From Dermatophagoides farinae (taxonomy: Eukaryota > Arthropoda > Arachnida > Sarcoptiformes > Pyroglyphidae): a DNA stretch of 64,000 nucleotides. Of this stretch, positions 832-63,625 are shown piece by piece. The stretch's first letter is position 1, and each line of letters begins with the position of its first letter. The position numbers and the translations under genes were made by a program. Below the pieces are notes generated by a model. It was not told where the DNA came from, searched no databases, and saw only the letters and a list, made by a program, of their open reading frames with translations. Where the stretch lies: the NCBI RefSeq assembly GCF_024713945.1, contig NC_134681.1:4193501-4257500 (forward strand). The letters are read 5' to 3'.

Positions 832-2497
832 ATGTTTCATCGTTCAAGTTCGATTTGTCATTCACTTTCGCTGATTGCTGTTCGTACGGCCAATAAAATT
901 GAACGACAACAATTACAACATCAGATTAGAAAATATTCTGCATGCAACAAAATATTCACGTTTCATCGAGAAAAACGTTTGGAACAAATTGATCAATTAC
1001 AAACAAGAAAAATGTCCGATTATCGTGAAGAAAAAGACACTATGGGAATTGTTCGTGTGCCCGCTGATCGTTTGTATGGTGCACAAACACAACGTTCTCG
1101 TGATAATTTTCGTATTGGTGCCGGACAAAATTGGGATGTAGAACAAATGCCCAAACAAATTATTCATGCATTTGCTGTACTTAAGAAAGCTTGTGCACGT
1201 GTAAATCAATCATATGGTGAATTGGATGAAAAACTAGCTAAAGCCATTCAACAGGCTTGTGATGATGTTATTGATGAACGATTGTCAATCAAAGATGAAT
1301 TTCCATTAGTTATCTGGCAAACTGGTAGCGGTACTCAATCAAATATGAATTGCAATGAAGTTATTGCTAATCGTGCTTCTGAAATTCTTGGTAAGTTTGT
1401 ATTCATCAAAAACTTAGCTGTTAATATTAATAAAAAATTTTTTGTTTTTTTCAGGTGGTAAACGTGGTGCCGAACGTTTGGTACATCCAAATGATCATGT
1501 TAATAAATCACAATCATCAAACGATACTTATCCAACCGCTATGCATATTGCTGCCGCTGTTGAAGTCAATAAGGTATTGTTGCCTGCTTTGGAAAAATTA
1601 CATCAATCATTGATGGCCAAACAAAATGAGTTTGCTAAAATTATTAAAATTGGACGAACTCATTTGCAAGATGCTACACCATTAACACTTGGCCAAGAAT
1701 TTTCTGGTTATTCTGCTCAAGTTCAATTTGGTATCGATCGTGTTAAAGCTGCTTTAGAACCACGTGTCTATTATTTGGCTATCGGTGGTACCGCCGTAGG
1801 AACTGGATTAAATACTCGTGAAAGCTGGGATCGTGATGTTTGCAAACAAATTTCGGAAATTACTGGATTGAATTTCCGTCCAGCACCGAATAAATTTGAA
1901 GCTTTAGCATCTCATGATGCTATGGTTGAATTATCTGGTTCTTTAAATGTTTTGGCTTGTAGTTTGAACAAGATTGCCAATGATATTCGTTTGTTGGCCA
2001 GTGGACCACGATCTGGTATTGGTGAATTATTATTGCCCGAATTGGAACCCGGTTCGTCTATCATGCCAGGCAAAGTAAATCCAACACAATGTGAAGCAAT
2101 GACAATGGTTTGTGCTCAGGTTCAAGGTAATCATGTAGCCACAACTATTGGCGGTACACAAGGTCATTTTGAATTGAACGTATTCAAACCAATGATGGCC
2201 GCTAATGTATTGCGTTCATCTCGATTATTGGCCGATGCATCTGTTTCGTTTACGAAAAATTGTGTCGATGGTATACAGGCAAATGAAAAACGTATTGAAC
2301 AATTAATGCGTGATAGTTTAATGTTGGTCACTGCATTGAATCCACATATTGGTTATGATAATGCTGCTAAAATAGCTAAAACAGCACATAAAGAAGGTGG
2401 CAATCTTAAAGATACGGCAATCAAATTAGGATTATTGACCGCTGAACAATTTGATCAATGGGTACGGCCAGAGAATATGATTGGACCAAAGAAATAA
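832..2497 (+). CDS. FH: Fumarate hydratase, class II, mitochondrial
   Basis: Converts fumarate to L-malate in the TCA cycle. There are two exons, 832-1390 and 1455-2497, separated by a 64-base GT..AG intron (phase 1), giving 533 residues, close to the usual animal length. Class II fumarase/aspartase motifs are present: [10 protein letters not shown] before the intron, [19 protein letters not shown] with the catalytic-region His, and the family signature [11 protein letters not shown] at about residues 386-396. Residues 1-60 are rich in Ser, Arg, Lys and Gln and poor in acidic residues, as expected of a mitochondrial presequence. A second in-frame Met at 1012 ([12 protein letters not shown]) would give a form without the presequence. 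I chose 832 because it is the first Met in the open frame. AATAAA signals follow at 2624 and 2646. Function is near certain; the exact start is less so. Confidence 0.96.
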
Positions 2498-7874: not shown

Positions 7875-10800
7875 TTAAGATTCTGTATCGCAAATTCGGG
7901 ACAACAAAATTTCCGAATATAAACGATTCAATTTGCCTTCCACATGATAACGAATACTAGTTCCATCTGGTGTTTTTTCCTTTATAATCTATTTATATAT
8001 ATACAAAAATAGAATACAGAACGATTTGATGTTTAAAAATTATAGAATATTCAAAAAAAAAAAAAAACACCATAGAAACTTACCCGATGAAAATGGCAAG
8101 CACATTTACCGGGATAGAAATCCTTATACATGGCAATGGTTTTATTGAATGTATCGATCACTTCAAAATTCAATCGTAATGCTTCATCAATGAGCAATTG
8201 ATTTTGTAAGGCCAATTTAATTTGTTCACTCTATAATTTTGATCATCATATGATTTTTGTGAAAAGAAAAACAAACACAAGCATGTAATAAACAAATAAT
8301 ATATTTACCACAGGCATATAATGTACACCAATAACCGATTGATGAAATCCTGATCCAAGTGTTTTCACAACCAAACGAATTTGATCATCAGAATCATTTG
8401 GTAAATCCAAGCCTAAATCACATGATGATGAAAGGTGGATTAATTTTTTTTTGTTATTTTCAACAACAAACAATTTCTGCTTACGATCGTAATTCTTGTC
8501 TAGCTATATGAAGATGTTGTCGTGATATCCATTGTACACCGCCAATGATGATAATATTTTTAATCGGTTCAATCATTTTATCATCAAGGAATCTGGAATT
8601 GAAATCATGTGAATATTGTGTCCAAACAAACAAAAACAACTTACGTTTGATGTAATGAATCATGAAAAACTTGAGCAAATGATGGCCGTTGATTAGGTGG
8701 TAACCAAAATTTTGGATAATAAGCAAAACTAATGGTTGTATCCAGATCGATTAAACGATAGGATTTATGATCATGTGTTTTATCCGCTTCGGTTAATGTT
8801 CTATTTAAACGTTCCATTATATAATGCATTATTCCACGATTGGTTGAATCACCGATCAAAAGAATCTAGAATTTAAGGGAAATTAAATTTAAAAAATTAA
8901 AATTTTTTTTTGTTTCATTTGTATAACCAATTACATTTTTATTGGATAAACATTTTCGTAAATGTTCTGGTTCCACTGGTATTCGATAACGACAACGATA
9001 TGGTAACCATTGTAATTCTGACCAAATACAGCCATTTAGCTTCGTACAATTAATACATGGTAATAGCCATCGACCATTTTCAGCTCCATGTTGACAGATT
9101 TTTTTCGTTTCTATTTGATCAATTTGTTTCAAACAATCATTATTATTATTCAATATTGTTGTCTTTGTACAAGTTTGATTTGTTGATTGCCAACCACATG
9201 ATTCATTTGGATATACACGTAGATCACAGTCTTGTATAAGATTACATATTTGATATTGTTGTTGTTGTTGTTTTTGTTGTTGTTGTTGCTGTTGTTGTTG
9301 TTGTTCATAATCAATAAATTGTGTTGATGATGATGATGATGATTCTAAAAGTGTTTGTCTATGTATCACAATCGTATAAATAGCAAGCACCATATTACTA
9401 TCGGATAATTTTCTATTCACTAATGTTAATCTTATTGAATTTTCACCAATACCAAGTGAAAAATTCAAACGTCCTGATTGTATATTATAATAATGATTAT
9501 CTAATCGTATCCATGTATCACAATGTGCTACTTCTGTATCAATTTGTATCAACATATTATCATATGATATTGGTTGATTTAGGTTATAATGTTTTTGATA
9601 TGGTTGAAATTTTGGTCGAAGTTCCAGATCATTTGGATAAAGAATTTTTAAATGTTTTAATTGTGATAAACTATATGGATCATTTGTACATTCTATTTTA
9701 TGGTTAATGATTTCATCATCAATATCAATATTATGATTATCACCGGTTATTGTTGCCATTGTTGTCCAATTTAAATTTGTTAAATCATGATGTACATCAA
9801 AATGTTGTACATCATTCAAAGGCAATGAAGATTTATTATCTTCCACTATTTGAGCAAACATTGCTTCAACAACTGGATGTAATCTTTCTGTTTGATATTC
9901 AAAATGTTTGTATTTATCCATTACCATTTCCTTGGTTTGACTTGATATCTGATTATCATTATTATTGTTATTTTCACTGTTACTAGTAGTAGTAGTAGTA
10001 TCAATTTGGAGCAAAATTTGTTCAAATAAAGCTCGTATATTTGAATATTCAGTCATATTCTGCCATCGATATGGATAAATTGATTCAAAATTTACGTCCC
10101 TCATTTGATCCATTTGATTCCAGCTATTAATCAAATATTCTAAATCCTGTTGGCTAAGGCAAACATTATGTGAAATATGACAATTAATGCCAAGAAGGCC
10201 AAAATGATCGCCATCAATCAATTCACGAAGTTTAATTGAAAATTTATCAAAATTTTTATCATTCAAATTTTGTGTTGATTTGGCCAACAATCGATATGTA
10301 TCCAATTGAAATTGATTCAATAATTTTTTCGATAATTTATCTTCATGTTGTCCAAGTTCGAGTTGTTCAAGTTGATCGATTGATAAAAGATTAACAATGA
10401 ATGCCTGATAGTTTTCCGTATGTCGAATAACAATATCAAATATTAAACATTGAAATGATTGTATTGCCGATGGATAGATGGCATCTGGTGATGATTGTAA
10501 ATTCAATAAACGATCATTAACTTCCATTAGAATCAATGAATATAATATAACACGATGTACTGATTGACGTGCCATTTTCATATCATTATTCGACGATGAT
10601 TGTTGTAGATGATTCCAAAAATTTTCCAAATTATCCAATGGATCATCATCATCATCATCATTATTATTATTATTTGATGATGGTGATTTATTATTATTCT
10701 GTTTATATGGTAATATTAATCCATATTGATATTGAAAAACACGTAATGGATTCAATGATGTGATCAATACAAATATTCGTAATTTAATCGGTTGGCTATG

Positions 10801-12091
10801 ATAATGGACTACTTGTTGAATAAAATGTTGTCGTATTATTATTGGACCTAATAATGGTGTCGATATCATAATCGTATGTAACGATGATGATTGTGATTGT
10901 TGTCGTAACGCTAAACGATTGATCTGTATTAATCGTGATCGATCTGTTTGTGAAAATATCTGTAATGGTTCACTTATTGATGATAGTTGATTATTATTAT
11001 GATAATGGCCATATTCTAATGTCCAATTTGTTGAATAACCTAAGGCATCGGAAACATCAAGAAATTTTTGTAAATTTTGTGGCAACGTAAAACAAAGCGG
11101 CGATAAGGGCTGTTGCCGTAATGCTGGATATTTTCTAACCAAATCAAATAAATTACATCGAATATCTGGCATTTTAATTAAAAGGGTTAATTGTTCAATA
11201 TTTTGGCGATATAATTGTCGACTATTTAAATGGGTGTTTGTCATCATCATTGTTTGATCATTATTGATTGTCGTTGTTGTTGTTTTTATTAATTGATGAT
11301 AATCAATTGTATCATCAATCACAATGATATCACATTGATTCATATTCATAAGGGTTATATTTAGATTGTTCCACAAATGAAACATTTCATTATTATTATT
11401 CATCAAACGATATAAAGATGATGGTAAATATATTCGGCCCTTTTGTTGTTGTTGTTGTGGACATTCCAAAATTGTTGCCTTTTTGATCTACGAAACGAGA
11501 AAAAAAATCAAATTTCCGATTAAATTACAATGATAAACAAAATGTTTCATTCACCTTGTTCAACATTGAATCCAGACGTTTATGTATGAAACGAAAACGT
11601 TTCTTTTGACGTATTGCCATCATTGCATCCACTTGTTTGGCCATAATTGTATAACGAGAATCGATTGTAATTTCGTTATTATTATCATCACCACCACCAC
11701 CACCACCACCACCATCATCATCATCAGTAGCAAAATATATGGATTGATTTGTTTGCTGTGATAATGGCTGTTGTTGTTGATCATTGTCGCTGAGTTTTGG
11801 ACAAAACCATTGCCACCATGGATCATCTTCTTGTTCTTGTTGTTGTTGTTGTTGTTCAACAGAATTGTCAATAAAAGCCAATATAGAATGATGATCGGAT
11901 TCTGTCCGTATCGACGTTGATGACGATAAACCATTTGGATTGACGCCATAAATATTAATAAAATAAAGGCTTAAAAATAATAGACCAATTGTAATGGCCA
12001 ATAATAATGTGAATAAATGTCGTAATAGTAGCCAATGTCTTAGAATCATTTGTGTTGTTAACCGAATCGGTAAAATTAATTTCAATTTCAT
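7875..12091 (-). CDS. CPED1: CPED1-like protein (cadherin-like and PC-esterase domains)
   Basis: Seven minus-strand exons: 12091-11555, 11487-8935, 8865-8645, 8592-8485, 8412-8309, 8230-8084 and 7988-7875, about 1260 residues. Residues ~27-51 form one hydrophobic segment (type II membrane anchor or signal anchor). A large variable region follows with poly-Gln, poly-Asn and Gly/Asp tracts. Near the end of the big exon is a cadherin-like beta-sandwich (LKHLKILYPNDLELRP ... LGIGENSIRLTLVNRK). Then comes a Cys-rich segment ending CRYRIPVEPEHLRKCLSNKN. The PC-esterase domain starts in the third exon with the catalytic GDS motif (ILLIGDSTNRG) and continues with IIIIGGVQW, VVKTLGSGFHQSVIGVHYMP and FYPGKCACHFH. 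This domain order is that of CPED1, whose substrate is unknown; PC-esterases act on acylated glycans. The join of exons 4 and 5 (8485 to 8412) is out of phase by one base with the only visible GT..AG sites, so that boundary is provisional. Confidence 0.83.
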
Positions 12092-14677: not shown

Positions 14678-14679
14678 TA

Positions 14680-15057
14680 CACACGGTACCAGTAAGTAAT
14701 TGGGCACTTTCGAAAAAAGCATTACGGCCTATGGGAGAGAGGGTTTTTTCAAAGCTTCTAAAACCATGTTTTTTGTCGGAATCAAGCGAAAATATTTTAC
14801 CAGTGCATAGTGAAAGAGTTGCTCTTTGAACAGTCTGAGTTTCAACTTCCGGCTACCATTTTCGAGAGTAGATGTGGGGTGTCAAAGTTTATGTAGGGGA
14901 AATTTTCGCCCTCTCGACTGTACTGCCATCTTGCAGATTAATAAATCCCTGAGATTAGCAAAAATGTATAGACACCAATTTTCGAATGTCGTGCAATCAT
15001 ACTTGGTTTATTTTGTGCCATTTTTTGTTGTAAAGTAAGAATTCAAAATTCAAAATC
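14680..15057 (+). repeat. Left outer inverted arm of the transposon
   Basis: Begins at the TA duplication and matches the reverse complement of 18188-18630. Over the outer ~325 bases I see one single-base indel (CCC versus CCCC near 14911 / 18400). One substitution occurs nearer the array, in GCCATTTTTTG/ATTG. This arm lacks a 64-base segment that is present in the right arm. Confidence 0.9.
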
Positions 15058-15519
15058 GAGAAAATGACCAATATCCAACCTAACACGACCAGATCAGAAT
15101 GGAGAAAATGGCCAATATCCAACCTAACACGACCAGATCAGAATCGAGAAAATGGCAAATTTCAAAACTAACACGACCAGATCAGAATCGAGAAAATGGC
15201 AAATTCCAACCTAACACGACCAGATCAGAATGGAGAAAATGGCCAATATCCAACCTAACACGACCAGTTCAGAATCGAGAAAATGACCAATATCCAACCT
15301 AACACGACCAGTTCAGAATTCAAAATTCAAAATCGAGAAAATGGCAAATTTCAAAACTAACACGACCAGATCAGAATCGAGAAAATGGCCAATTTCAAAA
15401 CTAACACGACCAGTTCAGAATTCAAAATTCAAAATCGAGAAAAGACCAAATCCAACCTAACACGACCAGATCAGAATCGAGAAAATGGCAAATTTCAAAA
15501 CTAAAACGACCAGTTCAGA
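15058..15519 (+). repeat. Left subterminal tandem array, ~44-bp units
   Basis: About ten units of 44 bases starting GAGAAAATGG. The unit carries CCTAACACGACCAG followed by ATCAGAAT or TTCAGAAT. Unit starts at 15058, 15102 and 15146 confirm the period. Some units are extended by AATTCAAAATTCAAAATC. The units resemble each other but show variants (CCAATATCCAACC versus CAAATTTCAAAAC). Short open frames through the array are artefacts of the period. Confidence 0.9.
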
Positions 15520-15520
15520 A

Positions 15521-15764
15521 TTGGTTGGCGATGCTTTATTGATTACTTTTCCAATATGTAGTGGTTTCTATTTGCTCATCGCTGTCTACAGTGATATTAA
15601 AATTCATCTTGATCGTTTAGGACTGCTGCTGGACATTTGTCATTTTCTCGATTTTGAATTTTGAATTCTGAACTGGTCAGAATCGAGAAAATGATTTTGA
15701 ATTTGATTTTAATGATCGACAATCATTAGAATCATCAATACAAAGTTATTCAAAATTCAATTTA
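15521..15764 (+). other. Non-repetitive segment inside the transposon, coding-like
   Basis: Between the left array and the transposase lies sequence unrelated to the 44-bp units. From 15521 one frame reads GDALLITFPICSGFYLLIAV and continues YSDIKIHLDRLGLLLD, a plausible membrane segment with flanking charged residues. It then runs into a copy of the array motif. From 15693 a different frame reads DFEFDFNDRQSLESSIQSYS and ends in a stop at 15762-15764. These could be captured exon pieces or chance open frames. I do not recognise the protein. Confidence 0.35.
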
Positions 15765-15890
15765 TAATTTTAAAACGACCAAATCAAGATACCAGAAAAG
15801 ATCGTTTAGGAAAAAGAAGAGATTTAAAAAAATAAATAAGAATAAAAAAAAAATCTCTCTAGTATGTAATGATGATGATAAATAGAAAAA

Positions 15891-15974
15891 TTAATCTTCC
15901 AACTGTCGATTCCATGAATTGATAACGATTAGATCCTCCAGTGCTGACGATTCCGGTAATTTGGACCACATCAT
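15891..15974 (-). other. Possible small exon downstream of the transposase
   Basis: On the minus strand, after the transposase stop, a good acceptor (GGTTTCAG, ending at 15975) precedes an open stretch of 27 codons starting MMWSKLPESSALEDLIVINS and ending in TAA at 15893-15891. A donor-like GAG|GTTAGT lies just after the transposase stop at about 16045. Splicing between them would not extend the transposase, because its TGA lies upstream of that donor. It may be a UTR exon, a remnant or chance. Confidence 0.25.
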
Positions 15975-16046
15975 CTGAAACCAACGGAAACAACGATTTT
16001 TTTGAATTCAAATTTTCAAATTTTCATGATTTATATTTAACTAACC

Positions 16047-17122
16047 TCAGTACCTCGTTGATCCGCCACGTGCCTTCTTCAAAGCTCGAAATCGGCTTGG
16101 CACGCTATCAATCAGCCGATCTATCAAACTCTGCGGCAATTCAGCCCATAACTTCACCAGGAGCTCGAATAAACCAGCAGAAGTCGACGGATGAAGCTTC
16201 GTTTGCTTCAATCGGCGCTTCAACGAGTACCATAGGTGCTCGATCGGATTCATATCCGGACTCTGAGCGACCCATTCCAGTTTTTTTATATTGGATTTTT
16301 TGATAAAATCCTGTGATCGCTTCGACATATGGCATGGTGCCCCATCTTCCTGGAAAAGGTAGTTCCTTTTCGTTACTTTATTTCTTCTATTACGGAAGAT
16401 GGGGAATAGCGTCGTTTCCAATGTATTAATATATTCTTCGCTATTCATGCTATTGGAGCAGAGTCTCAGCTCTGATCTCCCACCATGCCTATTTTCAAGG
16501 AATAATGATGATTATTATTATTATTAAATCAGGTCGAAAAAATCTTACCATATAGCCCCCCAAACCATCACGCTGAAACCATTGTGTTTCACAGTGGCTT
16601 GTAGCCTCTTGGTTTGGTAGGCTTGATTTTTCTTACGGTAAACGTAAGTTCGATAAGCGTCATTGAATTGCGAAAACCGGCACTCATCGGAGAAAATCAC
16701 TTTTCTCCAATAGTCCGTGGGCATCTTAACCATCTTATTTGCCCATAGCCGTCGTTTGTTTTTGTTTTTTTCGATAGCAGTGGCTTTCTTCGGGCAATTC
16801 TGGCCCCATATTCCAACATCGGAATGTATTTCCGAACGGTGTTTGCGGAAACATCCATGTGGCTCGCCAATTCTTCGCTTACTGTGGCTGGAGTTCTTTC
16901 GATTTGACGACCTAGTCGTCTCAGTGTCCGTTCTGACGGTCCAGGACGACCTGGTGGCTTGATCGCGTTTATTTGGTTATTTTGATGGTATGTTTTAATG
17001 ATATGATGAACGTTTGATTTGCTGGTGTTAATTTTTTTTGCTATGTTTCGATTGCTTAACCCGTCTTTATAATATTGTAGGACAATTCTGCGCAAAACTG
17101 TTTTTTCAATTTGTTTATTCAT
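16047..17122 (-). CDS. Tc1-family transposase (DD34E), probably spliced, one frame disruption
   Basis: Best model: exon 17122-16549, a 60-base GT..AG intron, exon 16488-16047, about 338 residues, normal for Tc1. The N-terminus carries a helix-turn-helix (LSNRNIAKKINTSKSNVHHI), a GRPG linker and a second HTH (TVSEELASHMDVSANTVRKY). The catalytic triad is visible: first Asp in VIFSDECRF, second in FQEDGAPCH, and Glu in NPIEHLW exactly 34 residues after the second Asp. The protein ends RGGSTRY, as Tc1 transposases typically do. The reading frame shifts at 16765-16771, where a run of seven A (minus strand) would need eight. The intron sits after VMVWGAI and restores the expected WHGGRSEL continuation. 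It would act on the element's ends by cut-and-paste. Activity is uncertain because of the frame break. Confidence 0.88.
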
Positions 17123-17369
17123 GATTTTTTAATATCAAAATTGCAATGGATCAATCAATGAATAAACGATAGTAAATAATAATGATGATAATGGTAATGG
17201 ATGAATAAATTAATCAAAGAAAAAGTTTTTAAAATGTTTAATCACGCTTAACAATATCAACACGACAACTAACATTCGATGGCTAAACCATCAAATTTTT
17301 CAAATAGAATGTTGAAAACAAATTTACCATTCAATTCGAAAATAGAATTACTAACCGAATTTCGAACAG

Positions 17370-18187
17370 GTCGCGTTAGTTTTTCGATTGTGAATTTTGA
17401 ATTCTAAACTGATCGTGTTAGTTTGGACTTGTTATTTTCTGGATTTTGAATTTTGAATTGATTGTGTTAGGTTGGATATTGGTCATTTTCTCGATTCTGA
17501 TCTGGTCGTGTTAGTTTTGAAATTTGCCATTTTCTCGATTCTGATCTGGTCGTGTTAGGTTGGATTTGGTGTTTTCTCGATTTTGAATTTTGAATTCTGA
17601 ACTGGTCGTGTTAGTTTTGAAATTGGCCATTTTCTCGATTCTGATCTGGTCGTGTTAGTTTTGAAATTTGCCATTTTCTCGATTCTGATCTGGTCGTGTT
17701 AGTTTTGAAATTTGCCATTTTCTCGATTTTGAATTTTGAATTCTGAACTGGTCGTGTTAGGTTGGATATTGGTCATTTTCTCGATTCTGAACTGGTCGTG
17801 TTAGGTTGGATATTGGCCATTTTCTCCATTCTGATCTGGTCGTGTTAGTTTTGAAATTTGCCATTTTCTCGATTCTGATCTGGTCGTGTTAGGTTGGATT
17901 TGATCTTTTCTCGATTTTGAATTTTGAATTCTGAACTGGTAGTGTTAGGTTGGATATTGGTCATTTTCTCGATTCTGAACTGGTCGTGTTAGGTTGGATA
18001 TTGGCCATTTTCTCCATTCTGATCTGGTCGTGTTAGGTTGGAATTTGCCATTTTCTCGATTCTGATCTGGTCGTGTTAGTTTTGAAATTTGCCATTTTCT
18101 CGATTCTGATCTGGTCGTGTTAGGTTGGATTTGATCTTTTCTCCATTCTGATCTGGTCGTGTTAGGTTGGATATTGGTCATTTTCTC
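17370..18187 (-). repeat. Right subterminal tandem array, ~44-bp units
   Basis: The same family of ~44-base units as on the left, in reverse orientation (CTGATCTGGTCGTGTTAGG ... GCCATTTTCTC). It has about 18 units, so it is longer than the left array. The innermost copies (17370-17460) are diverged, for example GATCGTGTTAG. Several units carry the GATTTTGAATTTTGAATTC extension also found on the left. Confidence 0.9.
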
Positions 18188-18630
18188 GATTTTGAATTTT
18201 GAATTCTTACTTTACAATAAAAAATGGCACAAAATAAACCATATTTTTTATTTATGTCTTAAAACAAGATTTAAAACAAATGCAAAATTGTCAAAATTGA
18301 TGTTAAGTATGATTGCACGACATTCGAAAATTGGTGTCTATACATTTTTGCTAATCTCAGGGATTTATTAATCTGCAAGATGGCAGTACAGTCGAGAGGG
18401 GCGAAAATTTCCCCTACATAAACTTTGACACCCCACATCTACTCTCGAAAATGGTAGCCGGAAGTTGAAACTCAGACTGTTCAAAGAGCAACTCTTTCAC
18501 TATGCACTGGTAAAATATTTTCGCTTGATTCCGACAAAAAACATGGTTTTAGAAGCTTTGAAAAAACCCTCTCTCCCATAGGCCGTAATGCTTTTTTCGA
18601 AAGTGCCCAATTACTTACTGGTACCGTGTG
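18188..18630 (-). repeat. Right outer inverted arm of the transposon
   Basis: Inverted match to 14680-15057, ending CTTACTGGTACCGTGTG next to TA. It contains 64 bases at 18241-18304 that are absent from the left arm. The sequence on both sides of that segment matches the left arm without a break. Confidence 0.9.
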
Positions 18631-19244
18631 TACGTGTGTGTATATCGAATTGGTGGAAATATGAAATAAAATTGATCGATAAATAATATTCTTTGAATTG
18701 AATCATTTAAGAAAAAAAAAATTTGAGAATCCAGTAAAAGAAAAGCCTGAAGAATAGAATCTTAGAATCTATATAATGGTGATTGCCACAATCATTGATC
18801 AATACACCATGATATATTTATATTGGCATTTATAATCGAATATTTTGTATCAAAATGTCAAAATTATTTCCATCATCATCAATATCAACATGGGGCCAAT
18901 ATATATAATTATGGTTTAATGAAATGATTTTTTTTTCACTCTCACTCTCTTGCTCTTCATTCAATTTTTATTATTCAACTTTATATTGACCACTGGACAA
19001 CTGGACAATATCATTCATATGTGTGACAATTTTTTTCTCCCATAATCACATTGGAGATGATCAGAATTCATTTAGAAAAAAATTCATTTTATTCTCATTT
19101 TTTCCTACGTTTTTGTTTTATGATTATTCCATCAAGTTATTTTCGATTTTTTTTTTTCGTTTTATTTCCATATAATAAAAAGTTTGAATGCAATAAAAAT
19201 TTATTATGGATAAAATGTTTTAACACTTTCCTTCTCTTTCTCTT

Positions 19245-23534: not shown

Positions 23535-23719
<185 letters not shown>

Positions 23720-24593
23720 CTCTCCCCAAACGCAAAATGTTTCGACTTTCATATTCATTGATTCTCATCATTATCATTATCAACTGAAGAGAAACAAAAA
23801 AAAAATGAAATGAAATGAAAAACAAGGGTGAAAATAATAATAAAAAAACATTGGAAACCAAACAAACTCGATTCATTCATTTTGATTTTTACTTTTTATA
23901 GTTTCCAACAGAATTCATTCATTGAATGAAACATCAAACACAAACACCATTTTCATTTGTGTGCAAACACAAACATGCACACACACACACACATGACAAA
24001 TATAAGACAAAAGATTTTTTTTTTTGAACCTAAAATTTCTGTTTTCCCTAGAATTCTTTATGGAATTTTCTCTCGTTTTTTATTCATTTTTTTTGTTATA
24101 ATAGAATATTCTGTTCTACTAGTTTTGTCACACACACACACACACACACAAAAGCCTGTTGCCATAACCCGGCTTTATTGATGTCCACAATGACGATGAT
24201 GATGATGATTCTGGTATAAGCATCAAAATATAATGGAAAATGATAAAAAAAAAAATAACGAATATAAAAAAAAACTCACTATAGAAGTGGTGTGTGAAAA
24301 AACAAAACAAAACCAAACAAAAAATCATTCATTCAAATAGGCTCAATTGATTTGTTCTTTTGTCTTTTTTTTCCAGTTCGCTCACTCGTTATCCATTCAT
24401 CGTTGATGGGTAACATAATAGGAAAAAAAAGCTGTTTTTCATTAATGTTGATGATAGGAAAAAAAAATGAGCGCGCCTAAATCAATTAAACAAATGGCAA
24501 TGAATATATGAAAAAAAAGTGATTATACAAACAAAGTAAAATATTACTTGAAAAGATATGGAGAAACAACAACAACAACAACAACGATGAATC

Positions 24594-57200: not shown

Positions 57201-57988
57201 CCTACCTGTTGATTGATAGTGAAGTGAATGAAATAAATACAAAAAAAACACGACAACAGAAAAAAAAGTGAGTGTTTGCCAATTTTTGAAAAAAAACCAA
57301 GCATTTTTTGGCTATTAATTAATTAATTAATCGGTTGACTGATGAATGTAATTTGTGTTGTTTCACATATATAATATATTTTCAGCTACGTGTTTTTTTT
57401 TCTCTGTTTTGTGTTTCAATTCATTTATGGTTTATTATTTGTCATTGTCGTCAGTCAGTCAGCCAGTCAGTCATTCATCCATTTCGCTTCCACGTGTCGT
57501 CAAATTCGATTTAAGCAAGTTATATATATAAAATTCATCGATTAGTTTTCAACAAAAGAAAATTCTTTTTTCAATTTTCCTATCTGTTTTGTTTTGTTGT
57601 TGTTGTTGTTGTTGTTTTTGTGTTTTTTTTCCCATTCGAAATGTTGCGAGAGAGAGAGATGGAGAGATGGAGAAAAGTTAAATTTAGTTTTTAAAGTTTT
57701 TTTGTTCTGTTGTTGCCTCTTGATGTATTTTTGTTGTTGTTTTTCTTTTCTTTTCTTTTCTTTTCAATTCCAAAATCATAAATAATTTTTCTTTTCTTTT
57801 TTTTTGTTTAGTTTTTTTTTTTCATCATCATCATCATCATCACCAGTGATATCCAATTGGTACAATCTGTCTGTGTGTGTGTATGATATTTCTATGAACA
57901 ATTTTTTGCTGTTGTTGTTGTTGAATGGTTACAAAAATATCTTTGAAAATAATGTCCAAAAATATTGCTATTGATCATCATCATCATC

Positions 57989-60900
57989 ATGTCATCAACA
58001 TCAACAACAACAACAACAAAAGCAGCAGCAGCAACAGCAGCTTCATCATCATCATCATCATCTGATAATGTTAACATACAAAATCAACCAGTTGATATAC
58101 CTGTTTTAAATCAACAACAATTGTTATTAAATAATGAAAATGATGACCATCATCTTATTGATTCTACTATAAATCAAAATGATGAAAATGATCAAGAATC
58201 AAATCCATTGAATAGACAATTGTTTCAACAACAGCTACAATATTTTCATCGCCACCATCAACATAAGAATGATGATGATGATGATGATGGAATCTATGCC
58301 AATTATAATGATGATTATGATGATGATTATGAACAATTCTATGACAAACATCAGCAACAATATTTAGTTGACCATTCAAATGACAATATGTATGGTGTTC
58401 CAGAAATGATGATTTTTGATAATCATCCACATCATCAACAACAACATTATAATCATATTGATTCAATTGTAGATGAAAATAATGATGATGATGGTGATCC
58501 ATATAATAATCGGATACAATATTTTTATGAAGATGATAACAATCATCAACAATCAATGGATGGTAATGGCATTTTACAGATAATAGATCCAACAACAATG
58601 ATTTATCAGAATGGTGAACATCAAACGGATATATTATCCGATGCACGTATATATGGATTACCAACATTTTTACCACAACAACAGCAACAAATACAACAAC
58701 ATATGTTAGCCATACCTGGTGGTCCAAATGGATCGATATATGGTAATCCATTAGTATATAGTTTACATACTATTTATGAAGAATCAGAAAATGAATCTTC
58801 ATTACAAACATTGTCATCATTAACATCGACATCGATGACTATACAAACCGATAGTGTTCAACACAACAACAACAACAACAACAATCATTAGATAGTTCAT
58901 TAGATAATAATGAAGATAAATTATCATCATCATCATCATCGAAATTCATTCATGATAATGATTCTCAGCAACAGGTTGCGCAGCAACAATTTTCAATTGT
59001 CATCACTACCAATGGTGATGGAGATAATCAAATTATGGAAAATGAATCGAAAAATTGTCAAACAAATGAAAATCATCATCATGTTTCTGATGGAAAAAAA
59101 TTTTCTAATTGTTGGAATAATAATAATCTAGATATAGACGATGATTATGTTGAAGATGAAATGGAAGAAGAATTAGATAATGTACCACCATTCAATGATT
59201 CAATCGCATTATCATCGAAATTGGAACGATATTTCACAAGTGGATTATTGGAAACGACAACAACAATTGTGGAAAAATCTCAGGTATCACTAAGTTTTGA
59301 TTATTTTCAAATGAATTTTTTTTCTAAATTTTTTTTTATTCAATAACATTAGGACCATCAACAAGTGAAATTATTGATGGACAACAAATCATTGTCATTG
59401 ATAAGTGGTAATGTTGACCATTTGAATAGTCGTGATCATAGTCATCAGCAGCAGCAACAACAACAGCAGCAGCATCCAATCAATAGACGAAAATTTGATA
59501 AAATCGGAAGCTTATGTAATTTACTCATCGAAATGATCTCATCAATAAAATATTCTAAAATAATGACAATTACCGATGATCAAACAGATGATGATGATGA
59601 TTTGTCAATAATTTTCAAACATCTTGACCAGCAAAGTTGTTTATATTGTTTAGATTTAAAAAGATTCATCATTAAAATGATTTTGATGTTAAGATTGTCG
59701 AATATTGACAACAACGGCAAAGATGACGACGACGATGACGACCATTGTTATTACAATAGTGGAAAACATTTGAAAGCCATTCATGATAACAACAACAACA
59801 ACAACAACGATAACAAAGCTGTTGATGATGATGACGATGATCGATTGTCGATTGTACGAATAATTGATCGACTATCACGACGGGAATATATCAATAATGA
59901 TGACGATGATGACAATCGTAAAACTTTATGTTGTTATTCACGTTTACAGCTTGAATATTTTTTAATAACATTTATGATTGAAAAGATTTATCGCTATACA
60001 CAGATCAATCATCTTTTATTTGATCATCATTTTTGGTCATATGAATTCAATCGTTTATATGGGCCAGCATCAATATTGAAAAATCAATCTTCATCATCAT
60101 CATCATCCGCATCATCATCGGGTAAAACGATCATTAAAGTTACTATCAATGGGAGATTAGTTCCAACTACTGTTGAAAATAGTTTCATTACCGGTATTTT
60201 ATCATCAACATCATCATCTACACAACAACAATCAAAAGTTTTGAAATCTTTACCGAAAAAATCAATTTTCAATCAACCAAAACGATTTTTATCAAATAAT
60301 GATTCATCAATACGTGTATTACAATCAAATATTGAACCAATCGATTTGTTTCGTCATCAATCAAAGAATCCTGAATATCGTACAATATTACATATAAATA
60401 ATCAACAACAACGACAACAATCAGGTGATTGGCATGGAAAAAAATCATCATTATCAATCACAGATGATGATGATGATGATGATGACGATGATATGGATGA
60501 TTATTGTGATGATAATGTGGATATTGAAACACGTTCTTCATCACAATCTTCATCATCAGCAACAACAATGATGAATAATTGTACAAATAAATTGAATAAA
60601 TTTCTTCGTGTTTCAAATCCATTGAATCGAAGTTTTTTGGCTAAAATTTCACCAATTCCTAAAGAATCGGAAAATAATATGAAAAAATCTTCAATTAACG
60701 GAGAAATAAGTGTTAGTAGTTGGGCAAATGAATCAATGATTGATAATGCTAATAATCACTCAATACATGGTGATGATACACATCAATCATTGATGAGTAA
60801 TGAAAATAATAAACAAAATGAACATTCCACTATACCAAAACGAAGCTGTTCACATGAACAGCTTCAAATGCAACAGAATTTACAACAAAAATCATCATCA

Positions 60901-63625
60901 TCATCATCATCTGATCATACTAGTCATAATGGATCGAAAAAAATCGATGAAACAAAATCATCTAAAGTGCCAACCAATAATTCATCCACGAATGGACATC
61001 GTAATAGTTTTAAAAATTTCAGTAATTCAACATTGGATCATATTTATGAAATGATCAGAAATCCATTTAAATCATCGAAAAAACGGAAAAAAATTTCCAT
61101 TGATACTAGACAAAATGATAAAAATGGATCCAAATCATTGAGTGAACCAAATCTGAATGGATCTTCTACTAATAAACGCCAGCAACGTAATACAGTATGT
61201 GATTCAATAAATAACGGTGATCATGTTTCAAGCAATGAAAATGATTCCATTGATGGTGGAAAAGTTTCGTATTCAAAATCAACACCACAATTAATGACGA
61301 ATAATAATAATAATGAAAATGGATCAAATCAATCTGAAAATCTTGAAACAATCAAATTGAATCAATTGCATACTAATGATGAATTGAATGGAAATAATTT
61401 CCGTCGAAATTCTGCAAGACAATTATCAGAAAAAAATCTAAATAGCGATCGAGAAAATGTTTGTGATTGTAATCATCATCCATTGATATCACGATTGAAT
61501 GGTAAAATGTTTAGATTTCCTTTTATTTTTTTTTTTTTGCTTCTGTTAAAATTATTAACATTTAAAATTTTTTTTTTTCACAAGGTCTATCACCAGCCGG
61601 ACGTATGAAAGGAAATCAACGACTACAGCGATCATTATCGGGATCACAAATCTCTTCATCAACATCATCATCAACAACAGCAACAAGTTCGATTGGATTT
61701 CAGCGTCCTAAATTATCGTGTATTATTTGTGAAAAAAATGTATATGTAATTTGTTTCATTTTTTTCCCCCTGAAAAGTAACGATAAAATATTTGTTTTTT
61801 TTTACAATCAATTCAGGTATCGACAATTGAAAATAGAACAAACGTTTTAGGTAATAATAATGAAATTAGAGCCAGTTATATTATTTCATCATCAAAATCG
61901 ACATCATTATCATCATCAGCGACATCGGCATCCACTCCCACTATAACAATACCGACATCATCGAAAACAGTCATACAACAATCATCATCATCATCATCAT
62001 CACCATCATCTTCTAGTCATACAACACAGTCGACATCCTCGACAACATTACGTAGTAGCATTAGTAGTCATTATATATTGGCCAAACCATTTGGTAATAA
62101 ATTTTCAAGTTTTCGTAATAATAATAATAATAATCTACAACAACAATCATCAACAAAAACATCGTTAATTAGTTCATATAATAATAAAGATTGTGATTTT
62201 AAAGAAAATTTACCTGTTGCTGATAACATTCAAAATGTAAGTATTTTTTTTTTTGTTTTGTTATCTTGATGATTGAATTGAATTGAATGATTGAATTGAT
62301 TCACAACATGTGTGTGTGTGTGTGTGCGTGCGCAATGCGCCATTCTCAAATTTCAAATTTTTTTTTTTGTTTTTGTTTTCATTCACTATAATTCCCAAAA
62401 AAAAATTGTAAAAAGCAATTGGAAGATTCATCAGAAAATTCTGACAATACAACAATGGCTATTATTGGAAAAATTTGTCTATCAATCTATTATGAAACGA
62501 AACTTAATTCACTTACGATTACCATTTTTCGTGGCCATTTGAATATGGTCAAGAAGAATAAAAATGATCTGTATGTGTATATATTATTATTTATTGATCA
62601 TTTATTGATTTTTTATTATTAATTATCAATTTATTATCATCATTTAGATACATTAAGGCTTACATTATTGTTGATCATCAACAGGAGAAAGCATTCAAAA
62701 AGAAGACAAAGATTAAAAAACCATTGAAAGTTGATACCAGTGCTGGATCATTGTATGAAGTTGAATATAATGAGATATTACGATTTCAAGGTAAATGGCG
62801 TGAATTTGCTTCCGGACAATTGAGTGTAAGTCTATGGAATAATGATACATTTGGCCGTAACACATTGCTTGGACAAACATTGATTCGTTTGAATGAATCA
62901 GTAATGCTTAATTCCATTCAGACACGAATCTGGCATGATCTTCATGTAAGTTGAACGTGATTTTGATTTTTAAAATCAGACCTTGTCATCAAGATAACCC
63001 ATATTTTTTTCCAGCAACCAACCAAAATCAAATGCCAATCAGTACATGTTAAAGGCAGTTTGTTTGTTGCAATCAAACATGAAGATGTAGCCATTTCATC
63101 CTCCGTTGATGGAACCGGCGTCGGTTCATTGCATGTTTTGATCAAAGAAGCTGATGATTTGAATCTTACACAATACAACATCAATGGCTATGCCTATTGC
63201 AAAGTGTATGTTTCTTATTTAAATGAAATTTTTTTCTCACACTAACAAATCATTCATTATTTATTGCCAAAAATAAAAGAATGCTGAAACCCGAACGTAA
63301 CAAAGATGATCGCCATAAAACTCGAACAGTAAAAATGGGCCAATGTCCACGTTGGAATGAAACAATTGTGTTCAACAATATAAACAGAAATGACATGAAT
63401 GTCAAAGAATTGGAAATCGCCATCATGTGGTTGGATAAATCATCGAAAACTTATTTGGGAAGCATTCGTTTGACTAATCATGAAGGTTTGTCTATTTTTG
63501 TCCAAATTTAATTTAAAAAAAATTCAATCATTTCAGGTGCAAGTAATGAAGAACGAAATCTTTGGCGACAATCAATTGAACGGCCAAATCTTTGGGCATA
63601 TGGAAAAATTCCATTACGACATTGA
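57989..63625 (+). CDS. btsz: Synaptotagmin-like protein, tandem C2 domains (bitesize type)
   Basis: Nine exons: 57989-59283, 59353-61501, 61585-61739, 61817-62236, 62416-62570, 62648-62945, 63015-63205, 63280-63485 and 63537-63625, about 1650 residues. The first ~1340 residues are low-complexity: poly-Ser, poly-Thr, poly-Gln, Asp/Asn runs and His-rich parts, with no recognisable domain. C2A spans about residues 1356-1495 (GKICLSIYYETKLNSLTITI ... NNDTFGRNTLLGQTLIRL). C2B covers about 1505-1640 (GSLHVLIKEADDLNL ... KTRTVKMGQCPRWNETIVFN). The end EERNLWRQSIERPNLWAYGK followed by IPLR matches the conserved C2B tail of Slp/bitesize proteins. These proteins act in vesicle docking and cortical actin/membrane organisation. 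No N-terminal Rab27-binding SHD is visible; it may be missing, on another exon or isoform-specific. The frame slips once in a CAA repeat at about 58862-58864, where one A appears to be missing. The first Met is chosen; upstream exons are possible. Confidence 0.82.

Follow-up and report, generated by a model that had tools for sequence, protein, structure and literature searches.

Foldback arms built of tandem repeats are known in a few transposon superfamilies. The foldback architecture is represented by Tc4 of C. elegans, FB of Drosophila, and TU of sea urchin, of which Tc4 belongs to the wider Tc1/mariner group. To our knowledge, none of the three has a 44-bp array in common with hAT elements; we found no literature on Tc4 and foldback, and nothing useful on the mite group studied here. 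Among Tc1 elements, Sleeping Beauty and the Bari-like elements encode a DD34E Tc1 transposase, as does the mite element; their direct repeats are short and few in number, with no arrays of 10–20 units. According to the available text of PMC3688188, the secondary binding sites of these elements are repeats within the longer terminal repeats. Galileo, an element of the P superfamily in Drosophila, resembles the mite element in having foldback-like long terminal repeats, internal tandem repeats, and a transposase gene, and extra transposase-binding sites have been shown in its terminal repeats (PMC3688188; PMC3573991). Its transposase, however, is a P-superfamily THAP protein while that of the mite element is DD34E, and the available parts of these two papers contain no mention of repeats in common with another superfamily. 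Tetris of the Drosophila virilis group is likewise of the foldback type: its terminal repeats contain tandem repeats (TIR-220), and its ends are also carried by a related element (Tetris/DAIBAM). Unlike the mite element it is non-autonomous, with a suggested Mutator affiliation and a 220-bp unit, and the available text describes kb-size satellite-like arrays, of which none was found at the mite loci examined (PMC4079207). As far as these sources go, Galileo and Tetris are precedents for the arms, and the sharing of an array block across superfamilies is the unusual part of the present case. No description of such sharing was found in the literature covered, which lay mostly outside subscription journals.

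The window is the whole 64,000-nt stretch of Dermatophagoides farinae DNA that was analysed (GCF_024713945.1, NC_134681.1, positions 4,193,501–4,257,500, forward strand), and positions refer to it. An earlier note had proposed a 3.95-kb element with TA duplications in this stretch. The element was located at 14680–18630 (3,951 bp) with boundaries exact to the base, and the TA duplication test identified target-site duplications at 14678–14679 and 18631–18632. The left outer arm (14680–15049, plus strand), a unique terminal inverted repeat, starts with CACACGGTACCAGTAAG and is followed by the left tandem array (15050–15521, plus strand) of 10 unit cores facing '>'. On the other side, the right array (17394–18198, minus strand) contains 17 unit cores facing '<' and is followed by the right outer arm (18199–18630, minus strand), also a terminal inverted repeat, which has approximately 63 bp missing from the left arm. 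The outermost 234 bp, including the TA, are 100% complementary between the two ends, and the unique terminal inverted repeat extends over approximately 0.35 kb per side with the array next inward. The unit period is 44 bp according to TRF, with some units of 56–58 bp. Both arrays face inward and flank the transposase gene; TRF and the unit cores agree with the inverted arms and oppositely oriented ~44-bp arrays that had been described for the locus. At the inner edge of the left array lies the sA fragment (15519–15647, minus strand), which recurs in the spacer of repeat family G. In its long inverted arms and the tandem repeats inside them, the element is of the foldback type, and the TA duplication, the DD34E transposase with its helix-turn-helix (HTH) region, and the terminal inverted repeats are those of the Tc1 group of IS630-Tc1-mariner.

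The transposase gene apparently consists of two exons on the minus strand. Exon 1 (16549–17122) covers the HTH and the first D, and exon 2 (16047–16488) covers DDE_3 with the second D and the E; between them the reading frames point to a putative intron of 60 bp (16489–16548, GTAAG...AATAG). In the window copy the frame of exon 1 is disrupted near 16.76 kb, and the match of this broken frame to HTH_Tnp_Tc3_2 (31.0 bits) falls just below the cut-off of 31.5. A second copy of the element, in which the frame is open, scores 39.8 bits, above the same cut-off, and generic HTH models also match the exon-1 region. The exon-2 region matches DDE_3 (33.4 bits, cut-off 28.6) and the Sleeping Beauty transposase in the PDB (E-value 3.1e-19). 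The D-34-E spacing, counted by eye on the translation, is present. The DD34E Tc1-type transposase named in the earlier note is thus supported by the DDE_3, HTH_Tnp_Tc3_2, and Sleeping Beauty matches.

The second full copy (C5:121782-126072, 4,291 bp), which belongs with the window element to group A of the array carriers, has its own TA duplication. It differs from the window element by 7 substitutions, and in the length of its arrays by +492 and −146 bp. Segmental duplication as the source of the two copies was ruled out because their flanks are unrelated. Three short Tc1 copies holding the array block form group B, and TA duplications at both ends were perfect in all two-ended Tc1 copies (2/2 in A and 3/3 in B). 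Copies at different sites suggest that the Tc1 element would have moved by cut-and-paste transposition. Another three loci (L016, L017, and L026) have one element end each. That the arms and the transposase belong to one element, as first suggested, is in line with their joint occurrence in the second full copy and, partly, in L016 and L026. No TA-flanked inner terminal repeats were found around the transposase (the best candidate matched at 13/20 positions, and 171/200 shuffles were as good), which rules out the alternative of a transposon nested inside an unrelated foldback element. L026 is a divergent relative with 87% identity in the terminal repeat and 75% in the transposase DNA. Since it also carries an array unit behind the terminal repeat, the units are old in the Tc1 lineage. 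Arrays were absent from the transposase relatives L055, L056, and L057, which is uninformative, since all three are fragmentary and lack recognised ends.

A genome search with the 30-base unit core, allowing up to 3 mismatches, gave 269 + 218 = 487 matches, while the reversed control gave 0 + 0. This count, together with the second full copy at its own site, rules out a chance arrangement. The units of the 48 loci examined lie in dispersed blocks, most of which consist of two inward-facing arrays around a spacer. The suggestion that the arrays are a source of satellite DNA was not supported: no long transposon-free array was found at the 48 loci or among the matches listed (100 of 487), and the longest run in one orientation at the places examined was 33 units, at L036. 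Besides group B, four families whose elements have hAT-type ends (C, D, E, and F) carry the block. The surroundings of the blocks at L015, L020, L027, L028, L033, G, L071, and L072 could be assigned in part at most.

The elements of groups C–F have CAG ends and 8-bp target duplications, as do hAT-type MITEs, from which they differ by the palindromic tandem-array block in common with Tc1 elements. The duplications were perfect in 23 of the 25 two-ended hAT-type copies (C 6/7, D 8/8, E 2/2, and F 7/8; the exceptions are L062 in C and L041 in F). The genome contains 5 matches to the hAT dimerisation domain Dimer_Tnp_hAT, none of them within any C–F copy examined; one (C3:6741862-6742074) adjoins the block L015. 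L068 and L069 are short D-like hAT elements without an array.

The spacers are also found in unlike carriers. Spacer s1 occurs in B (Tc1) as well as in C and D (hAT-type), spacer s2 in C, L027, L033, L015, and L061 with a 70-bp piece in the D copy L067, and spacer sA in A, F, G, and L033, the F family having only a 37–39-bp part of the sA fragment. The 18 genome matches of this fragment lie in the A copy L011, in L033, or in copies of the F/G families (several of them, e.g., C5:5308750, outside the set of copies examined). A coding origin of the fragment was rejected, as no Pfam family matched at E-values up to 1. On the right side of F, a remnant of the Tc1 terminal repeat, oriented as expected, lies at a distance of 37 bp from the array (0/200 shuffles as good). 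The other eleven flanks tested (both sides of C, D, E, G, and L027, and the left side of F) showed no or weak similarity to it, the best being the left flank of L027 with 6/200 shuffles as good. How the block reached C, D, E, and G is consequently inferred, as among the flanks tested the clear Tc1 remnant is restricted to the right side of F. Pieces of F also occur in D (~150 bp, 94%) and in C (52 bp, 92%), each on the corresponding side of the array.

Array similarity was compared in sequence windows. Arm-to-arm similarity exceeded that to other groups in A (42/56 windows) and was not ahead in B (8/26), C (15/162), D (25/205), E (11/30), and F (0/54); the test is biased against the own arm, as one own arm faces many foreign arrays. 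The best match was within the own group for A (56/56), C (193/207), D (226/238), F (54/54), and G (6/6), and outside it in 10/26 windows of B and 15/45 of E. The groups B?, x15, x20, x27, and x33 (6, 3, 6, 25, and 15 windows) consist of one locus each, without a partner of the same group. Ongoing free exchange of arrays is not favoured, as the windows of A, C, D, F, and G mostly match their own group, with B and E as exceptions.

The best explanation, which we consider probable, is that the array block of this foldback-type Tc1 element entered hAT-type elements through nested insertion followed by replacement of the ends, and has since spread there as a passenger. The block would first have been resident in the Tc1 lineage and would have been carried into hAT-type elements by nested insertion, so that the direction of transfer, as we infer it, is from Tc1 to hAT. 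Deletion and the gain of new outer ends would then yield several hAT-type carriers with which the block could spread. The arrays themselves would gain and lose units through slippage or in-register unequal recombination, and arm-to-arm conversion may keep the arms of the Tc1 element alike. A stronger version, in which the palindromic block is a portable part handed from Tc1 to several hAT-type families with swapping of the cargo enclosed by the arrays and of the outer transposon ends, appears doubtful to us; its arrays would act as docking or recombination sequence linking unrelated transposons and be retained for helping their carriers through recombination, binding of transposase or host factors, or hairpin RNA.

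Amplification of secondary binding sites for the Tc1 transposase is a possible, though on balance unlikely, explanation of the units. Tandem repeats inside the long terminal repeats of Galileo bind its transposase, as far as the available text tells (PMC3688188), and the arrays of A, B, and L026 lie directly inside the terminal repeats and face inward, with the arms remaining alike in A. However, the unit number varies greatly among copies, and the arm contains no clear counterpart of the terminal 40 bp (14/100 shuffles as good). Derivation of the units from the terminal repeat is at best borderline (5/100 shuffles as good). This weak resemblance and the presence of the same arrays inside hAT-type elements make binding sites less likely as the sole explanation. 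Many carriers hold the same inward-facing block with spacers that travel with the arrays, as expected if the block were a mobile foldback element in its own right that had entered Tc1 and hAT elements independently, and a stand-alone block could hide among the loci with incompletely assigned surroundings. Yet, judged by eye, the block edges fall at differing unit phases between carriers and have no common end or target duplication, and the carriers hold pieces of one another, which fits patchwork assembly better; we regard separate insertion as quite improbable. Persistence through hairpin transcripts that would feed or dodge small-RNA silencing seems improbable as well. Long inward-facing arrays would give double-stranded RNA if transcribed, the genome has 6 matches to cellular RNA-dependent RNA polymerases, and piRNA loss has been reported in house dust mites (PMC5805368, available text), but the ability to form hairpins is common to every foldback element. 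Very improbable, finally, is a host satellite sampled by transposons, or an emerging one. The ~44-bp units do stand in tandem and assemblies can collapse satellites. The available account of Tetris also offers a precedent (PMC4079207), but at the places examined, and with 100 of 487 matches listed, the units form dispersed blocks of at most 33 units per orientation.

The block thus resembles a repeat block handed from one type of transposon to another more than it resembles satellite DNA. Since near-identical elements differ so strongly in array length, the growth of such arrays becomes testable. The presence of the block in Tc1 and hAT-type elements with clean target duplications likewise makes its role in transposition, and the passage of sequence between unrelated transposons, testable. 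Should the array prove to be under selection, it would represent a new kind of component shared by transposons.

The element at 14680-18630 of the window is of the Tc1 type, 3,951 bp long with TA on either side, and its arms are mutually inverted, the outermost 234 bp (TA included) being 100% complementary. The arms contain arrays of tandem units with a period of 44 bp by TRF, some units being 56-58 bp long. Unit cores number 10 in the left array and 17, oppositely oriented, in the right; in the array portions, complementarity is 98% over three stretches of 195-233 bp. The transposase lies between the two arrays on the minus strand, and its reading frames indicate two exons and a 60-bp intron (GTAAG...AATAG). 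The Pfam model DDE_3 matched it at 33.4 (cut-off 28.6), and several generic HTH models matched too; HTH_Tnp_Tc3_2 scored 31.0 bits in the window frame against a cut-off of 31.5, and 39.8 bits in the second full copy (L011). Sleeping Beauty was matched in PDB (E 3.1e-19), and by-eye counting on the translation gave 34 residues from the last D to E. The description in the earlier note of a Tc1-type element with TA duplications, opposed ~44-bp arrays and a DD34E transposase was thus borne out. Elsewhere in the window, open frames were seen at 1442-2497 (plus strand; fumarase-like, with Lyase_1 and FumaraseC_C matches), 8866-11469 (minus, 867 aa), 57965-58891 (plus, 308 aa) and 59365-61608 (plus, 747 aa), of which the last three matched nothing in Pfam at E 0.001; a (TC)n tract of ~95 copies occupies 23537-23724.

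The genome searched was the 62.4-Mb assembly of 22 contigs, in which the window is C5:4193501-4257500. L011 (C5:121782-126072; 4,291 bp) sits between flanks unlike those of the window copy and carries a TA duplication of its own. In a MAFFT alignment, 7 substitutions and seven indels of 1-14 bp separate the two copies, besides two large changes in the arrays: the left array of L011 is 492 bp longer and the right 146 bp shorter. Because the first 492 bp of the left array match the window copy at 98.8%, its change in length would fit an in-register deletion or expansion between similar units. The transposase frame is open across both exons in L011, and in the window copy it is interrupted near 16.76 kb. 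At L056 (C4:1717000-1722000) a transposase relic adjoins a gag-pol-like open frame, so named by eye.

According to the earlier note, its reading would fail if arms and transposase never occurred together elsewhere, or if the transposase had its own inner terminal repeats and TA duplication inside an unrelated foldback element. Between the arrays, the best TA-flanked inverted ends scored 13/20, a value equalled by 171 of 200 shuffles, and a nested inner transposon was rejected. Terminal repeat (97%), array unit and transposase are all present in L016, and the divergent L026 combines a terminal repeat (87%), transposase DNA (75%) and a unit. Since no nested ends were found and the parts co-occur, both objections fail.

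The 30-base unit core, with at most 3 mismatches, matched the genome at 487 sites, 269 forward and 218 reverse, against 0 for the reversed control. We examined 48 unit-bearing loci, some covered only in part. Counting runs of at least two units, 34 of the 48 have the plain order '>' then '<', and the remaining 14 lack a second arm or any such run, have split arms, or consist of two adjoining elements (L021). By the same count no single element among the 48 has '<' ahead of '>'; when single units are counted, the composite locus L033 does. At L021 (C5:2844500-2852500) the adjacent carriers, of the E and C families, each have their own 8-bp duplication. Satellite formation, a feature of Tetris (PMC4079207), is not supported by the loci observed, and the arrays did not emerge as a satellite source, as had been proposed, among the 48 loci and the first 100 of the 487 matches, whose places were listed.

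The block of two opposed arrays and a spacer was found in several shells. Three short Tc1 elements (shell B: L012, L013, L014; 1,492-1,940 bp) have TA duplications (3/3), and transposase searches gave no match in them. Over 325 bp their terminal repeat is 97-98% like that of the full elements (shell A), but among the outermost 24 bases 6 are changed; the B ends look as if altered relative to A. Families C, D, E and F are called hAT-type from their ends (CAGGGGTCGGCAACC in C, CAGTGATTCTCAACC/CAGTCATTCTCAACC in D, CAGGGCCGGCCC in F) and duplications; the five hAT dimerisation-domain matches in the genome all fall outside the C-F copies examined. Duplications of 8 bp flank 6/6 C and 7/8 F copies with two exact ends, 8/8 D copies (0.9-3.3 kb) with both ends covered, and 2/2 of E. 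The F exception is L041, without a matching duplication, and another F copy, L042, lacks one end; in the seventh C copy, L062, one end is altered and the flanks do not match, and L028, L061 and L070 (also C) each show one end. With the D inner flank as probe, 13 places matched it whole; units are present in each of the 12 examined, and at the thirteenth (C1:5620663) unit matches lie ~0.7-1 kb off. Since two short D-like hAT elements (164 and 162 bp) have no array, D-like ends can exist without one. The block also occurs in a larger repeat family, G (L059, L060 and two more places). Surroundings are at best partly assigned at L015, L020, L027, L028, L033, L071 and L072. At L015 (C3:6741500-6745600) a hAT dimerisation-domain match (C3:6741862-6742074) adjoins spacers s2 and s1, an array and a partial Tc1 terminal repeat.

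The spacers cross these boundaries. Spacer s1 is common to B and the hAT-type C and D, at ~92-98% between most carriers and lower in L062; s2 is carried by C, L027, L033, L015 and L061, with a 70-bp piece in the D copy L067, and sA by A, G, L033 and F (37-39 bp only). Within C, some copies have s1 and others s2. Pieces of F recur on the array's matching side in two other families, ~150 bp at 94% in D and 52 bp at 92% in C. F itself retains a remnant of the Tc1 terminal repeat: 39 bp, matching positions 113-151 at 87%, that lie 37 bp outside the array, oriented as expected, with a score that none of 200 shuffles reached. The same test on eleven other flanks gave no clear remnant; the left flank of L027 is weakly similar (6/200 shuffles as good) and the right flank of D less so (13/200). 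L033 (C2:3923000-3931500) unites s1, s2, sA and inner pieces of C, D and E, and might be either an intermediate or several elements nested in one another. Because of this patchwork, the sequences suggest that a Tc1 insertion may have brought the block into a hAT-type element, and that its carriers would then have shed parts and acquired new ends; we infer that transfer ran from Tc1 to hAT. Compared in windows of 176 bp, the arrays agree with those of other shells at median values of 0.70-0.93. The best match of a window usually comes from its own shell in A, C, D, F and G, and less often in B and E, so the transfer seems to predate the most recent spread of each shell and does not look like a free exchange that is still going on. 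In A, 42 of 56 windows are closer to the other arm of their copy than to other shells; B, C, D, E and F show the opposite, in a comparison biased by setting a single own arm against many foreign arrays.

The element is most safely read as a cut-and-paste Tc1 transposon that has foldback arms and dynamic arrays travelling as passengers. The units may instead be amplified candidate transposase-binding sites, as the earlier note proposed; such amplification is a feature of Galileo, a genuine precedent (PMC3688188). Similarity of unit to terminal repeat is borderline here (5/100 shuffles as good); no clear recurrence of the terminal 40 bp is seen in the arm (14/100). It is also possible that the block gives rise to a putative hairpin siRNA; cellular RdRP (PF05183) has six matches, on C2, C5 and C7. 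Some of these six are probably fragments of a single gene. The genome also has a homologue of the group-2 mite allergens at C1:5872227, with Der p 2/Der f 2 as best PDB match, which makes an astigmatid mite very probable as the host.

Long terminal repeats holding tandem repeats are an already known kind. In our literature search, with curated repeat libraries outside its scope, we found no description of a Tc1 DD34E element whose arms each hold 10-20 units, nor, above all, of one palindromic block with shared cargo across Tc1 and several hAT-type families of a single genome.
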